Assembly: GCA_030550775.1 (NCBI GenBank)
Contig: JAUQOS010000005.1
Location: forward strand, 1-52,265
DNA from: Armatimonadota bacterium
Lineage (GTDB): Bacteria; Armatimonadota; Fimbriimonadia; Fimbriimonadales; GBS-DC
Direction: 5' to 3'
DNA length: 52,265 bases
The position numbers were made by a program, and so were the translations under genes. How positions within the stretch are numbered: the first letter of the stretch is position 1; each line of letters begins with the position of its first letter. Shown in pieces: positions 1,528 to 52,265 of this stretch. The notes below the pieces were generated by a model. The model was not told where the DNA came from. It did not search any database and saw nothing but the letters and a program-made list of their open reading frames with translations.

Positions 1528-3816
1528 ATGGAATCGATGAGACGACTCGGTTGGTTGGTAAGCGTGTTCGCCGTGTGTGCCTTCGCGCACGCACAACGCC
1601 CCCCAATCGCTTGGATCGGTGGGGGCGAAGTGTCTACCTATATCGGGTTCTATTTCCAAGACGACCGGTATTTTGTGACCAGCGAAGGATTTTACATCCA
1701 CTTCTGGCGTCTGTCGGACAACAAACTAGTGCGCACACTGACAGGGCGTCAACTATTCGGGCGCTCCCTGTACAGTGCGTCTCTGGCTCCTATGCCGAAC
1801 CGCCAGCAGCTGGTGGTGGCCTATCCCGACACAGACCCCGATACAGGCTATCGCGGGATTCGCATCCGCATCCTGCAGCCCGACGCGAATCTGGATAACT
1901 GGACGACCACGGCGCAAGGCGGCTCATTCGTAGAGGACGGAACGGAGGAGGACGAGCCAGGCAACGCCGCAGCGCTCGCGATTAGCCCCGATGGGCAATA
2001 CATTGCAGTGGGCGGCGGCGATGCTGCAGGCTTCACCCGGCATGGGCTTGTGCTGTACCGCGTCAACGGCACTCAGATTGAGCGCACGCAGTACCTTGTG
2101 CGCAATCCGAGCTGGGCGCCAATCTTTGCCGCAGCGTTCTCGCCCGACGGCGAATGGCTGTTCGCCGGCAGCGCGGGCGGCTGGGTATTTGTCTACAAAC
2201 GCCAAGCAAACGGCACTTACGCCTACCACCAGCGCTTCATCATCGGCGGCAACGGCTTTTATATCAACTGCTTCGCCTTCGCTAACCGTCCCGATGGGCT
2301 CTACGTGGCGGTTGGCGTAATGCCCAACGGCATTATTGAAATGCGTCGCTTCAACCCCGTGTTCAACGAATGGCGACTTTACATGCAGTGGCAGACACCA
2401 GACCAGAGCGCGCCAACCTCCAGCGTGAACGCGCTGCAGTTCTCGCCCGACGGGAGCCGATTGGCTGCCGCCTATGGCTCCTCGGCGTTCGGTGTGGTGT
2501 TCTACGATCCCTATCTGCGCATCTACCAAATCAACTACAGCAGCGACCCCGATTATCGCGGAGCAACGCCCATTTTTCAGGAAGTGTTCCCATATGATGT
2601 GGTCACGGTGGCTGCCTACAACGCCAACGCTTCGGAGCTGATTTCGGGCACGCGCAACGGCGACCTGCGCCGCTGGAGCCTGGAAACGCGGGAGTACACT
2701 GCCCTACCACACCATCGCGGATTCCTCACCGCGCTGGCTTGGTCGCCTGACGGCACAAAAATCGCCACCGCTGCTCAGTCGAACTACTCCGTTCCTACGC
2801 AAACCTTCGTGTGGGATTTCGCCAGTCAGTCGGTGCAGGCACGGATCAACCATTTAGATTCGTGGATTGGCGCACTCGCCTTTTCACCCAATGGCAACTA
2901 TGTGGCGACTGCCGGGCGCGCCCTGCCCGACCGAACTATCGACCTGTGGGACGCAACCACGGGCGACTTTGTAGTTACCATCGGCACGCTGAGCTACAAC
3001 GGCAGCGGGCTGGCGTTCTCACCCGACGGGCAGTATCTCTATGCCGCTGCACGCAACGGCGAGCTAAAAGCATTCCAACGCGGTGCAGACTGGCAAACTT
3101 GGACGGAAATCGCGCAGACCAACGCCCCTGATAACGCCCTGACCCCCGTGCAGATTGCGCTCTCGCCCGACGGCAGCCGACTGGCCGTGGGTTCTCAGGA
3201 GAGGGTGCAAATCTACCTGACGCCGTACCTGACGCTGGAACGCCAGATTACGGTTGCGACCGAGCCTGAGCGCATTATGAGCGTCGCCTGGTCGCCCGAC
3301 GGACGCTACATCGCTGCGGGCACGCGCAACGTGCAACCCGCGCCGGTATACCTTATCAATACAGCCGACTGGAGTGTTCGTCGGCTGCCTACCGCCGACA
3401 ACGGCTATGAGGTCTATGCCATCTCCTTCACACCTGATGGATGTTATGTGTTGGGCGCGGGCTCGCAAAATAGCGACGGCTCGGGCGCAAACCTGATGTT
3501 GTGGCACACAGGCAGTGGAACGCTGGCAACCCAGTACGATGATGAAACGCTCTTTCTCATTCAGGGGGCAGCCTTCTCGCCTGATGGACGCTACATCGCC
3601 TATGGGCGCGACGACGGCTCGCTGGTCGTGGCGAATAACCCGTTCTATCGCCGCGCGGGCGATGTCAATCGGGACGGCTGCGTGAATGATACTGACCTGC
3701 TGCTGGTACTGTTCAACTTCGGCGGCAACGACCCGAACGCCGATCTGAACTGCGATGGCGTGGTGAACGACTCCGACCTGCTAATCGTGTTGTTCAACTT
3801 CGGAAGCGGGTGTTGA
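1528..3816 (+). CDS. Secreted WD40-type beta-propeller protein with dockerin-like tail
   Basis: 762 residues. The frame is open further upstream, but ATG 1528 follows AGGAGG (1513-1518) and starts a clear signal peptide (MESMRRLGWLVSVFAVCAFA, cut near AHA-Q). The body consists of repeated WD40-like blades carrying the motif FSPDG or WSPDG with x-W-D strands, enough for one or two propellers. The last ~50 residues hold two EF-hand-like loops, GDVNRDGCVNDTDLL and ADLNCDGVVNDSDLL, each followed by VLFNFG. This is the dockerin type I pattern. Dockerins bind calcium and, in cellulosomes, cohesins; whether a cohesin exists here is not visible. The same tail recurs in the protein at 48949. The role may be surface or extracellular binding; the ligand is unknown. 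Confidence 0.82.
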   Translation: MESMRRLGWLVSVFAVCAFAHAQRPPIAWIGGGEVSTYIGFYFQDDRYFVTSEGFYIHFWRLSDNKLVRTLTGRQLFGRSLYSASLAPMPNRQQLVVAYPDTDPDTGYRGIRIRILQPDANLDNWTTTAQGGSFVEDGTEEDEPGNAAALAISPDGQYIAVGGGDAAGFTRHGLVLYRVNGTQIERTQYLVRNPSWAPIFAAAFSPDGEWLFAGSAGGWVFVYKRQANGTYAYHQRFIIGGNGFYINCFAFANRPDGLYVAVGVMPNGIIEMRRFNPVFNEWRLYMQWQTPDQSAPTSSVNALQFSPDGSRLAAAYGSSAFGVVFYDPYLRIYQINYSSDPDYRGATPIFQEVFPYDVVTVAAYNANASELISGTRNGDLRRWSLETREYTALPHHRGFLTALAWSPDGTKIATAAQSNYSVPTQTFVWDFASQSVQARINHLDSWIGALAFSPNGNYVATAGRALPDRTIDLWDATTGDFVVTIGTLSYNGSGLAFSPDGQYLYAAARNGELKAFQRGADWQTWTEIAQTNAPDNALTPVQIALSPDGSRLAVGSQERVQIYLTPYLTLERQITVATEPERIMSVAWSPDGRYIAAGTRNVQPAPVYLINTADWSVRRLPTADNGYEVYAISFTPDGCYVLGAGSQNSDGSGANLMLWHTGSGTLATQYDDETLFLIQGAAFSPDGRYIAYGRDDGSLVVANNPFYRRAGDVNRDGCVNDTDLLLVLFNFGGNDPNADLNCDGVVNDSDLLIVLFNFGSGC

Positions 3817-14917: not shown

Positions 14918-14947
14918 GTGAGATTCCTCGCCTTCAGAGCGGCACGA
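14918..14947 (+). repeat. Lone, degenerate arm of the dispersed inverted-repeat element
   Basis: It begins GAGATTCCTCGCCTTC like the forward arms near 22506 and 31509, then diverges (AGAGCGGCACGACA). No opposite arm is found at the expected distance. Confidence 0.6.
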
Positions 14948-15122
14948 CAGTTCCTGAATGGTGCACTGACATAGGGATTTTGGGGATCACCGCACCGTCG
15001 ACCCACTCGGCGTGGGTGTCTTCGTCCAGCCACTTCAGAAACGCTCGAACGAAATCTCGCCTTGCGGCGGCGTGCGTGCCCCTTCGTAGATAACCTGCTC
15101 CGTCGTGGCTTACCTGCACCAT
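14934..15122 (-). pseudogene. Remnant of a Uma2-family (DUF820) nuclease-like gene
   Basis: The frame reads RAFLKWLDEDTHAEWVDGA then VIPKIPMS, matching the start of Uma2 proteins (FLxWxDEDTxAEWVDGEVI). It then loses homology and stops after about 62 residues, where the full protein needs about 190. The catalytic Asp and Glu-x-Lys core is missing, so it is a decayed fragment. It lies in the largely empty 14751-15468 stretch, next to the lone repeat arm. Elsewhere that stretch shows only a TATAAT at 15171-15176 and a weak candidate prkA promoter. Confidence 0.6.
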
Positions 15123-22479: not shown

Positions 22480-22485
22480 ATTATA
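22480..22485 (-). promoter_or_regulatory. -10 box of the vWA/coiled-coil/DUF2135 operon
   Basis: TATAAT on the minus strand about 80 bases before the vWA ATG. No good -35. It abuts the first repeat arm (22506). Confidence 0.5.
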
Positions 22486-22505
22486 ACCCAAGTGGCTCCC
22501 TCTAT

Positions 22506-22586
22506 GAGATTCCTCGCCTACGGCTCGGAATGACAAGCATATTGTGCGCAAACAACTTTGTCATCCTGAGCGCAGCGAGGGGTCTC
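22506..22586 (+). repeat. Composite inverted-repeat element, copy 1
   Basis: Forward arm 22506-22535 (GAGATTCCTCGCC ... CGGAATGACA) and reverse arm 22559-22586 (TGTCATCCTGAGCG ... GGTCTC) are near-complementary, with arm starts 53 bases apart. The roughly 23-base centre is unrelated to other copies. The gap 22402-23003 contains no gene, only this copy, copy 2 and short hairpins. Confidence 0.85.
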
Positions 22587-22602
22587 AACCGTGTTTTCAC
22601 CG

Positions 22603-22683
22603 GAGATTCCTCGCCATCGGCCCGGAATGACAAAGCCCTTGCTGGCAAAAATGGAATGTCACTCCGAGCCAGCGAGGAATCTC
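22603..22683 (+). repeat. Composite inverted-repeat element, copy 2
   Basis: Forward arm 22603-22632 (GAGATTCCTCGCCATC) and reverse arm 22657-22683 (TGTCACTCCGAGCC ... GGAATCTC); pitch 54. In tandem with copy 1. Downstream at about 22765-22783, a separate small hairpin (TTGGGGT / ACCCCAA) and GC-rich palindromes fill the remaining non-coding DNA up to dtd. Confidence 0.85.
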
Positions 22684-23003
22684 ACCCACTCAAAACGGAC
22701 AGGCGGTGATTATATCAGTGATGGGGCGTTACGAGAAGAGGTTTTCCCCGCCGTGCCGTGCGCCGTTGGGGTCGCGAACCCCAAGGTTCCTTTTTGGGAG
22801 GTCTGGCTCGCCTCGCGATTCGTCGCCTGCGCGACGCTTCCACTCAGCCAAGCCATCACTCCCTGCCATGTTGGCGACGGTTCGACCCACCTCGGGCGTC
22901 ACGCACACGGCAGGACGCATGAGATTATACCTGCAAGCGGTGCTTTTGGTTCCTGTGTTTGCTTTCGGTTCGCGTAGCCGAGTCGTCAGCGGGGGCACCG
23001 ACG

Positions 23004-29048: not shown

Positions 29049-29115
29049 AGGTTCCCCCCGCACGCGAGGAGAACCGAAGATCTGCTCGGTTCCCCTGACG
29101 GCGTAGGAGGAACCT
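29049..29115. repeat. Pair of facing GGTTCCCC palindromes
   Basis: Left palindrome 29049-29075 (AGGTTCCCCCC ... GGAGAACC) and right palindrome 29088-29115 (CGGTTCCCC ... GGAGGAACCT) face each other across ACCGAAGATCTGCTCGGT. The same unit occurs at 52226. The rest of 28814-29570 has no convincing gene. A frame at 29372-29600 reads RAKQRAAILQHAGLEVLPVV like decayed coding DNA, but is bounded by stops and not identifiable. Confidence 0.7.
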
Positions 29116-29570
29116 GGAGGAGAGGGGCGAGGAAAACAATCGCACCACCGCATCGCTTGGGGAGGCGATGTATGTGCCCTGAATGAAGCAAGTTCCAACG
29201 AGGGGCTCAAGCAATGCCCTCGCAACTACTGGGTTACTCCGCTGGCATTGTCGAGACGGTTGCTCGACGAAAACATTGAACCTGAGCACGAACCACTTGG
29301 TTGCCGATTGCATCTGATGAAGGGGCAACAAAGGTCGCGCCGGCTGAAATTTTGCTCAAAGTGGGGATGCGCGATGTGCGTTGCGTGCTAAACAGCGCGC
29401 TGCGATTCTGCAACACGCAGGACTGGAAGTATTGCCCGTGGTCATCGGCTCAGAGTGGGCGCACCCAGAGCCCGAGCCGCTGGCAACCCAAGAGGGGTCG
29501 GTTGGCGCGTGGGGAATGCCGTGTCCGAGTCGCTTGTCGCCCATCGTTGCCTCAACGGCGCAGACTGAAC

Positions 29571-31508: not shown

Positions 31509-31588
31509 GAGATTCCTCGCCTTCGGCTCGGAATGACAGATGCGCTTTCACACGCCTAACTCTGCCATTCCGAGCGGAGCGAGGGAGG
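31509..31588 (+). repeat. Composite inverted-repeat element, copy 3
   Basis: Forward arm 31509-31538 (GAGATTCCTCGCCTTC ... GAATGACA) and reverse arm 31563-31588 (TGCCATTCCGAGCGGAGCG); pitch 54. Lies between the candidate RNA and the photolyase stop. Confidence 0.85.
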
Positions 31589-31631
31589 TGCATAAGTCGC
31601 TCCCTACACCTCACTGCCCATAAGCGGGCGT

Positions 31632-36049: not shown

Positions 36050-36129
36050 GAGATCCCTCGCTGCGCTTGGAATGACAGCGTTGATAGCACGCCAACTTAC
36101 CTGTCTCCTCAAGCCGAAGGCGGGGAATC
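36050..36129 (+). repeat. Composite inverted-repeat element, copy 4 (degenerate)
   Basis: Forward arm 36050-36077 (GAGATCCCTCGCTGCG ... GAATGACA) and reverse arm 36102-36129 (TGTC ... GCCGAAGGCGGGGAATC); pitch 52. Fills the gap between GH78 and the J-like gene. Confidence 0.7.
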
Positions 36130-36160
36130 GCCCCAGTCAGCATCCCTGCTCTAGGGTCGT

Positions 36161-37452: not shown

Positions 37453-37515
37453 CACGCAGGCGCATTTTACCCTGCTGAGAGGCTGGCAAGGGATGACCCC
37501 AGTTGCTACTCGTAT

Positions 37516-37596
37516 GAAATTCCCCACCCTCGGCTCGAGAGGCAGGGGCGTTTGCCCTCCAATAAGCCCGTCATTCTGAGCGCAACAAGGGGTCTC
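37516..37596 (+). repeat. Composite inverted-repeat element, copy 5
   Basis: Forward arm 37516-37545 (GAAATTCCCCACCCTC, diverged) and reverse arm 37569-37596 (CGTCATTCTGAGCGCAAC ... GGTCTC); pitch 53. Confidence 0.7.
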
Positions 37597-37612
37597 ACTC
37601 GCATTTTGTGTA

Positions 37613-37687
37613 GTATTCCTCGCCCTCGGCTGGGAAGGACAAGTTCTTTCCTTGTGAGAGCTGCTCTGTGATTCCGCGTGCGGCGAG
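37613..37687 (+). repeat. Composite inverted-repeat element, copy 6
   Basis: Forward arm 37613-37641 (GTATTCCTCGCCCTC ... GGACA) and reverse arm starting 37667 (TGTGATTCCGCGTGCGGC); pitch 54. The gap 37453-37764 holds copies 5 and 6 and the LacI-gene promoter. Confidence 0.65.
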
Positions 37688-37724
37688 AAAACCCCGCCTG
37701 CTCGAGAAAGTCTCTCGGAAGGAG

Positions 37725-48948: not shown

Positions 48949-50229
48949 ATGAAACGCGTTTATGGCGTTTTGGGCGCAGTTGCGGTTGCGCTGCTAAGTG
49001 CAAGCGCACAAGTGCGATTCACTCACCTCAAAAGCGTAGACCTGTCCAGCTACTTCAACGGGCAAGCCTTGGGAAGCGTCGCTTCGGATGTGGCGTTCGA
49101 CGGCAGCAACCTCTACATCGCGGGCTATTCCAACGCGGCACAACCTGCTTCGGTGGGCGTGTTGAAAATCTCCAATGTGCTGTCGCTGGATGTGAATAGT
49201 TGGGGCTACACACCCCTTATTACCCTTACTCAAGCCGCGCAGAGCCGCGTGAGCAGCCTTGTGTACCACAATGGTTTTCTTTATCTGGGCACAGGGCTGG
49301 GCGACACCAGCAATCAAGCCGCAAACACAGGAATCCGCAAGTTCGACGCAATCACAGGCACCCAAGTAAGTGACTGGAACAGTACGGGCGTCGTGCTTCC
49401 CAGCGACTTGAGCAACTCGTCGCGTGCCGATAGCTTGGAGATTGACCCTGGCTTTGTGAACGACCCGAACCGTACGCCTTCGTTGGGCATCGTGGCGTTT
49501 GGGCGCGGCATTGTGTTCCGCCGCGACTTCGGCACAGGGGTGGCGCTGCCTAATATGTTGGCAGTGCCGTCACGCGACTGTCAGGGCGGCTCAGTGACTA
49601 CCGAAATGCGCGACCTTGCCTTCTCGCCTGAAGGTGATGTCTATCTGCGCTTGGCAAACAGCATCTTCTACGCCCCGCGCACAGGCGCAAACACCGTAGA
49701 GAACAACCGCGCTTGCCGCATCGCCGATTTCAGCCCTGATCCTACGAACCAAGTCTCGGTCAACCTCCACTACTTGCGCGTGGGCAACCAGAGCTTCTTG
49801 GTGTATAACCGCCGCGATCCGAACAACCGTCAGGGCTATGCGCGCGTGTTCATCGTCACAGGCGCAGGAGCCAACTGGGACTTTGCCAACCCCTATGCCG
49901 TGCTCACAGGCAACGAACCCCTACCCAACGGCAGTATCCCCGCTGAATACAACTTCGACATTTTCAACTTCACCAGCGGCGTGGGCACCGACCCATCTAA
50001 GGGCGATGTGAACTTGGACGGCGTGGTCGACGATGCAGACCTTCTCGCTATCCTGTTTGAGTTCGGCACCAGCAATGCGGCGGTGGATACGAACAGCGAT
50101 GGCGTGGTGGACGATGCTGATCTGCTAACTGTGCTGTTTAACTTCGGCACCAGCCCGCAGTCGCTCTACCTGTTCGTGGTGCACAGCAGCATCGGTACCG
50201 ATCGGCTGGACATCTATCGGGTGGACTAA
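48949..50229 (+). CDS. Secreted protein with internal dockerin-like calcium-binding repeats
   Basis: 426 residues. The signal peptide is MKRVYGVLGAVAVALLSASA. A mostly beta, Gly/Asn-rich body has possible propeller-like blades (NLYIAGYSN, LYLGTGLGD, DLAFSPEGDVYLR). Near residues 345-400 come two loops, GDVNLDGVVDDADLL and VDTNSDGVVDDADLL, each followed by LFxFGTS: the same dockerin-like tail as in the WD40 protein. Here it is followed by a further 25-residue end (LYLFVVHSSIGTDRLDIYRV). No function is assigned. Confidence 0.8.
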   Translation: MKRVYGVLGAVAVALLSASAQVRFTHLKSVDLSSYFNGQALGSVASDVAFDGSNLYIAGYSNAAQPASVGVLKISNVLSLDVNSWGYTPLITLTQAAQSRVSSLVYHNGFLYLGTGLGDTSNQAANTGIRKFDAITGTQVSDWNSTGVVLPSDLSNSSRADSLEIDPGFVNDPNRTPSLGIVAFGRGIVFRRDFGTGVALPNMLAVPSRDCQGGSVTTEMRDLAFSPEGDVYLRLANSIFYAPRTGANTVENNRACRIADFSPDPTNQVSVNLHYLRVGNQSFLVYNRRDPNNRQGYARVFIVTGAGANWDFANPYAVLTGNEPLPNGSIPAEYNFDIFNFTSGVGTDPSKGDVNLDGVVDDADLLAILFEFGTSNAAVDTNSDGVVDDADLLTVLFNFGTSPQSLYLFVVHSSIGTDRLDIYRVD

Positions 50230-52053: not shown

Positions 52054-52083
52054 TTTTTTTTTAGCCCAAGTGGCTATCTTGGT

Positions 52084-52158
52084 GAGGTTCCTTGCCCTCG
52101 GCTCGGGATGACAAGTATTGGTAGGAGCCAAGTCGTTTGTCACTCCGAGCGAAACGAC
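52084..52158 (+). repeat. Composite inverted-repeat element, copy 7
   Basis: Forward arm 52084-52113 (GAGGTTCCTTGCCCTC ... GGATGACA) and reverse arm 52138-52158 (TGTCACTCCGAGCG); pitch 54. The upstream flank CCCAAGTGGCT (about 52065) also precedes copy 1. Confidence 0.8.
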
Positions 52159-52225
52159 TGACAAGGGTACAGGGCTACCTCAACCGCCAAAGCTGCTGCC
52201 TGCTTTTCTCCGAACCCCCTCCTTG

Positions 52226-52253
52226 AGGTTCCCCCTACTGCGTAGGGGGAACC
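52226..52253 (+). repeat. AGGTTCCCC palindrome, second copy of the 29049 family
   Basis: AGGTTCCCCCTACTGCGTAG then GGGGAACC, followed by GAGCAATTC, which resembles the centre of the 29049 pair; the window ends before any second half. Confidence 0.7.
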
Positions 52254-52265
52254 GAGCAATTCTTT

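Follow-up and report, generated by a model that had tools for sequence, protein, structure and literature searches.

MITEs bearing the ends of IS982-family insertion sequences have been described in Cardinium, where MITECca01 and MITECca02, of ~240 bp, derive from the IS982-family element ISCca4 (PMC9769881). The REPs of the CGTC superfamily, such as dRS3 of Neisseria and RPE-4 and RPE-6 of Rickettsia, are defined by a palindrome with AT at its start, a tag (CGTC or TGTC) at one of its ends, and a short tail; they form inverted dimers in which the tags face outward and only rarely inward (Di Nocera et al. 2013, PMC3733652). In this survey, which lists five phyla, Armatimonadota not among them, CGTC REPs are not associated with transposase genes, and how these repeats spread without a dedicated transposase is left unexplained. 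The survey also reports REP dimers centred in a larger inverted repeat (CGTC-1 of H. neapolitanus and GTAG-15 of A. variabilis), reads that repeat as a target palindrome, and in the part drawn on here mentions neither a parent IS nor a duplication. The REPINs and BIMEs of Escherichia and Pseudomonas also consist of two inverted REPs at a fixed spacing, form chained mosaics in intergenic regions and carry GTAG tags, and go with a HUH transposase, RAYT, that is flanked by REPs.

Here we have analysed a repeated unit in a 52,265-nucleotide stretch of a Fimbriimonadales (Armatimonadota) genome (the window). Like MITECca01 and MITECca02, it is a short non-autonomous element with IS982-family ends, many copies and a mostly intergenic location, but it carries a pair of REP hairpins, which is not described for the two longer Cardinium elements. 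It shares with the CGTC REPs the tag, the AT start of the stem, the short tail, the inverted dimers and the lack of a dedicated transposase, whereas its tags face inward and the pair lies inside a MITE flanked by target-site duplications (TSDs). With REPINs and BIMEs it has in common the two inverted REPs, the fixed spacing, the chained mosaics and the intergenic position, but neither GTAG tags nor a REP-flanked HUH transposase was found here; with the palindrome dimers it has in common that a REP dimer is centred in a larger inverted repeat.

Results

Copies in the window

The initial annotation of the window had reported seven two-arm copies of an inverted-repeat element with a constant arm pitch, and all seven are borne out by the coordinates of the arms (Table 1); 13-mer matches number 12 in the window, against 1.2 in shuffles. 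The pitch is real, although the arm starts are 52-55 rather than 52-54 bases apart. The arms are of two subtypes, F with the loop GCC-GNA-GGC and R with the loop GC-GNA-GC, and the unit therefore has a polarity, the copy at 36050 having the opposite orientation to the others. In the window's genome most terminal inverted repeats (TIRs) are decayed, and some copies are chained in the form F-24-R-15-F-24-R. The window copies at 22506 and 22603, as well as those at 37516 and 37612, are chained units and not independent insertions. The intergenic location ascribed to all copies holds with one exception, as the second arm of the 37612 unit reaches into a LacI-type gene if this is given its longest possible start; the Pfam match to the gene starts 34 residues in.

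Table 1. Parts of the element in the window (positions count from the first nucleotide of the window)
Feature	Position	Strand	Remarks
Lone F arm, decayed	14920-14949	+	possible remnant
Left TIR of MITE	22485-22502	+	AACCCAAGTGGCTCCCTC; 3 changes against the consensus of young copies
REP arm F, unit 1	22506-22535	+	TGTC tag toward the centre
Centre of unit 1	22536-22558	.	23 nt
REP arm R, unit 1	22559-22586	-	
Linker between chained units	22587-22602	.	16 nt
REP arm F, unit 2	22603-22632	+	
REP arm R, unit 2	22657-22683	-	27 nt, one base under the usual length
Right spacer and truncated right inverted repeat	22684-22705	.	spacer ACCCACTCAAAACGGA, repeat CAGGCGGT; end inferred from intact copies
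REP arm F	31509-31538	+	between prmA and photolyase genes; no inverted repeat detectable at this copy
REP arm R	31563-31590	-	between prmA and photolyase genes
REP arm R of minus-strand element	36050-36077	+	
REP arm F of minus-strand element	36102-36131	-	
Left TIR	37495-37512	+	degenerate
REP arm F	37516-37545	+	decayed
REP arm R	37569-37596	-	
REP arm F, second chained unit	37612-37641	+	
REP arm R, second chained unit	37667-37694	-	decayed
Left TIR	52063-52080	+	10 bases past tRNA-Asn gene
REP arm F	52084-52113	+	
REP arm R	52138-52165	-	half replaced by another dispersed repeat

Several other features of the window were observed. The MITE at 22485-22705 adjoins a probable 6S RNA gene (22741-22919, minus strand), a full-length RF00013 match whose 38.2 bits lie under the gathering score of 46.4 (E 1.7e-6), and which is 87-92% identical in ~10 congeners. 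Another dispersed repeat, beginning CTGACAAGGGTACA, occupies 52158-52265 and ~18 other places in the stretches taken from the same genome; it is often joined to REP arms and is followed by GGTTCCCCCTAC-type inverted repeats. Positions 29077-29126 and 52215-52264 are inverted partners. At 3661-3810 and 50005-50154 there are two pairs of related 69-nt repeats with a spacing of 81 bp, each near the 3' end of an ORF that is dockerin-like by eye.

Copy number and spacing in the genome

The window's genome (G000) is a draft assembly of 2.43 Mb in 152 contigs, 97% complete. The 30-nt F-arm pattern, with at most 3 mismatches allowed, has 142 matches in this genome and none for the reversed control, and there are 112 F-arm copies in the genome G009. 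Position-weight scans of the window and 68 stretches of G000 returned 128 F arms and 124 R arms, against 1 in shuffled sequence; these stretches were taken around matches and are REP-enriched, and the fractions hold for them. The gap from F to R is 24 nt in 39 of the 91 oppositely facing pairs and 20-26 nt in most others. Besides this pitch there is a second fixed distance, absent from the initial annotation: the gap from R to the next F in chained units is 14-16 nt in 37 of 37 cases.

The arms are REPs of the CGTC superfamily

Read on the strand of the tag, an arm has the form TGTC-ATTCC-GA-GC(C)-GNA-(G)GC-GA-GGAAT-CTC, i.e. a tag, a 5-bp stem, a tandem GA mismatch, 2-3 further base pairs and a three-base GNA loop. 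According to the column counts, it consists of a palindrome that begins with AT and is tagged with TGTC on one side, and of a short tail, and each arm is thus a CGTC-superfamily REP. Its stem of 5 bp, GA mismatch and 2-3 bp compares with a stem of 8-9 bp and a loop of 4-5 nt in CGTC REPs, where the convention for counting mismatches may differ, and in the basic unit the tags face inward, against the outward tendency of CGTC dimers.

Among the three loop columns, the middle one varies most in both arm types (96 F and 91 R arms), with A 62, C 28, T 4 and G 2 in F and C 55, A 17, T 10 and G 9 in R, and the G and A on its two sides are mostly kept. DNA mini-hairpins of exceptional stability, e.g. 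GCGAAGC, which melts at ~78 C, follow the rule of a GNA loop with closing G-C pairs (PMC4686876). These REPs appear to obey the same rule, and the GNA hairpin may have a role at the DNA level. Ordinary folding energies show no extra stability, since isolated arms fold no better than shuffles.

In arm R two stem pairs change together, from TT/AA to CC/GG, with 32 and 31 double changes against shuffle maxima of 26 and 27, and the corresponding pairs of a long hairpin between F and R show no association. The covariation supports hairpins formed by the single arms over one long hairpin, and the paired change in R may go back to two subtypes or lineages and not to many events. The reading proposed at first, a long hairpin whose loop is free, is thus not upheld, the loop not being free in young copies either, and an RNA folded in this manner was rejected, the F:R pairing being without covariation support and the element without an Rfam match. 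Preferred arm spacing and covariation, whose joint absence genome-wide the initial annotation had named as counting against its reading, were both found.

The full unit is a 137-138-bp element with terminal inverted repeats

From a flank, CCCAAGTGGCT, shared by two copies, it had been suspected that the true unit is larger, and correctly so, the flank being the TIR. The younger copies, in sister species, are elements of 137-138 bp, in which the 18-bp TIR (AACCCAAGTTGCTACCTA) at either end encloses, in this order, arm F, a 24-nt centre, arm R and a 16-nt spacer; the end motif in short is AACCCAACTTGCTACCTA. TATAACCCAAGTTGCTACCTA occurs in the left flanks of the arms and its reverse complement in the right ones, for the most part at fixed offsets (3-4 and 16 nt). 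A search with AACCCAAGTTGCTACCTA found 32 places in G000, 57 in G009 and 15 in the genome G012, and the reversed control found none in these genomes. Of the 160 sides that the REP clusters of G000 have, 54 carry a TIR within 17 nt of the arm, where 1.6 would be expected at this threshold, and 28 of the 72 clusters with at least two arms in this genome have it on neither side.

The distinct elements obtained by pairing the TIRs in the window's genus number 40, and 21 have a length of 137 or 138 bp. When aligned, 31 elements of standard length match end to end with a conserved interior. The element has no coding capacity, is shorter than ~300 bp and occurs in many copies, as MITEs do. The centre had been described as unrelated between copies, but young copies share the centre AAGTTCATTTTCGCAAAAACGGCTT and old ones retain a faint trace of it; since even the centre is common to the young copies, the variable loop between the window copies is a matter of decay. 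The constant pitch had been taken as a sign that selection or the copying mechanism acts on the whole unit. The copied unit indeed exceeds a lone palindrome, but the pitch follows from the copying of one ancestral element, so that no separate selection is needed.

A non-autonomous mobile element was among the readings considered at the outset, and besides the TIRs it has now gained support from TSDs and an empty site. Exact 6-bp TSDs, including ATACCT, AATACT, ACTAAT, AATTAT and ACGGTT, flank 6 of the 40 elements, against 0.32 expected and a maximum of 3 in 500 shuffles of the pairings; other duplications have one-base differences or are 5 or 7 bp long, so that the signal consists of the six exact cases and several near matches. 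The flanks of the elements are 78% A+T, compared with 40% for the genome. For one insertion in G000 (L015, contig C90), the sequence obtained by leaving out the element and joining its flanks is matched in full, over 840 bases, by eight congeners, and the junction, displayed for five of the eight, is a clean empty site. Of two further G000 loci, one is matched by relatives in one flank only, and synteny differs at the other, that at 22506.

An IS982 element with the same ends

Contig C231 of the sister genome G012 contains a 916-bp element that has the 18-bp ends of the MITE and an intact ORF of 291 aa, which encodes an IS982-family transposase with a DDE domain (NF033520, 184 bits, cut-off 130). 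Its ends have the C variant (AACCCAACTT), as do the MITEs of G012, and its flanks, read across two contigs, share the 7-bp duplication ATGATTT. G000 itself keeps two remnants of this IS982 with their ends, one from the 5' side (C86) and one from the 3' side (C43). We regard the MITE as IS982-type because the IS982 of the sister genome has the same ends and the window's genome keeps its remnants; to judge from these sequences, an IS982 transposase probably moved it. The similarity between the two is limited to the 18-bp TIR and at most a few bases beyond. In the draft assembly of G000 only fragments of IS982 and no intact copy were found, and the draft assembly of G009 gave no IS982 copy, though the MITE is abundant there.

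REPs outside the IS982-type MITE

A second element, 146-147 bp long with the ends GAGGGTGTTCGAAAAATCG, harbours REP pairs of this kind, tags inward, in G009 and G002, and was found in several congeners (L389, L105, L395). Thus in G009 two MITEs with unrelated ends both carry REP pairs, and elements with GAGGGTGTTCGAAAAATCG ends that are free of REPs exist as well. Duplications of ~9 bp (AGGGGTTAG, AAGGATGCC) were read by eye from the flanks of GAGGGTGTTCGAAAAATCG-ended elements, an automatic count over 13 of which gave one exact 9-mer only. As the same kind of pair occurs in this second, unrelated MITE, the REPs seem to behave as passengers separable from the MITE.

The REPs of the sister genus (G013) are outward-facing pairs without IS982 ends. 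Farther afield, at least 117 stretches in the public genomes of many phyla contain the exact 28-mer TGTCATTCCGAGCGNAGCGAGGAATCTC, against a chance expectation that we estimate at ~3e-5 (2 x 257 Gb); a literature search for the motif returned primer-like chance matches only. In other phyla 21 REP pairs face outward and 4 inward, an excess that agrees with the CGTC-REP survey (Di Nocera et al., PMC3733652). REP dimers of these phyla lie within larger inverted repeats in 2 of 27 cases, against 0-1 in controls, and the arrangement is therefore not general at this sensitivity. In one Acidobacteria genome (L217, L218, L228, L230, L245, L256), several outward REP pairs were seen by eye to be bounded by ACAGGCTGCGGAAAAA-like ends; this may be a third MITE host, in a phylum other than that of the first two.

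Discussion

Taken as a whole, the evidence makes it very probable that the unit is an old, decayed, non-autonomous IS982-family MITE with two CGTC-superfamily REP hairpins as a pair inside it. A DDE transposase of the IS982 type, acting in trans, would bind the 18-bp TIRs, excise the MITE and insert it into AT-rich intergenic DNA with a duplication of ~6-7 bp. The REP arms F and R, their tags facing each other over 24 nt, would be copied along as passengers, and the arm pitch would be fixed because the arms are copied with the MITE; in the window's genome some copies became chains, and most TIRs have decayed. The hairpins may affect nearby genes.

How the REPs got into the MITE is the one point on which a further reading, compatible with this explanation, differs from it. 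According to it, REP pairs move independently, as a unit of their own, and insert into palindromes, here the centres of MITEs, after which the MITE multiplies the composite. REP dimers within palindromes have been reported (Di Nocera et al., PMC3733652), and insertion of this kind has been suggested for some of them. The presence of the same F/R pair kind, tags inward, in two G009 MITEs with unrelated ends fits such insertion, as do the REP-free members of the second family; but no MITE was found to differ from another by nothing except an inserted bare REP pair, a transposase for such a pair is not known, and recombination between MITEs could also move the centre. We consider this route possible, if somewhat unlikely. 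We are slightly more doubtful of a broader idea, offered tentatively, that CGTC REPs persist by colonising the centres of unrelated DDE-transposase MITEs and that their near-invariant sequence is kept for an exceptionally stable ssDNA mini-hairpin of the tag strand, with a GC-GNA-GC tip.

Our first hypothesis was that of a REPIN moved by a RAYT, in which the REP pair is the mobile unit, copied as ssDNA by a Y1 (HUH) enzyme, and the outer repeats are incidental. Each arm is indeed a tagged REP, the spacing of the pair is fixed, REPs also occur in contexts without IS982 ends, and G000 encodes one single-copy Y1 protein. However, in that sole Y1 protein the Y1 domain is fused to sigma-70 region 4, the HUH motif has lost its first His and reads QUH in nearly all aligned members of its family, and the protein is equally present in REP-free genomes; no REP lies within ~1.5 kb of its gene at the loci of 18 genomes. 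The tag is TGTC and not GTAG or GTGG, and no RAYT gene flanked by REPs was found. Y1 transposition is not known to yield inverted terminal repeats or TSDs, both of which are seen here. With the TSDs, the inverted ends and so poor a Y1 candidate, the hypothesis was dropped as very improbable for the 138-bp unit. The fusion protein itself (L001:1183-1902, minus strand, on contig C84 of G000), with its IS200-type Y1 domain, is conserved in 18 of the 18 genomes of its family that were searched, looks domesticated, and is encoded between what we take, by their sequence motifs, to be a DinG-like helicase gene and a HIT-family gene.

A functional RNA element or transcription terminator kept by selection is the least probable reading, for although one copy lies beside the probable 6S RNA gene and another after a tRNA gene, and a single strand of the entire element has a strong fold (z -11.7), which is bound to be so for any inverted-repeat element, the unit has no Rfam match and is missing from an orthologous position in relatives, its copies decay freely, and its covariation, limited to two pairs in one of the arm subtypes, can stem from two lineages.

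What is new is the presence of a CGTC REP pair inside a MITE of the IS982 type, in a phylum that the 2013 survey (PMC3733652) does not list. The passenger idea would gain in interest if it held in other phyla, where the sole broad test was negative (2 of 27). For repeats of this type, the whole element with its ends, and not the palindrome, should be modelled. Within one genus, CGTC REPs ride in two different MITEs, one of which is tied to IS982 by its ends, its duplications and an empty site. The spread of REPs thereby becomes testable, by asking whether other CGTC families sit in MITEs and which part drives; hitchhiking in MITEs would explain how these REPs spread.
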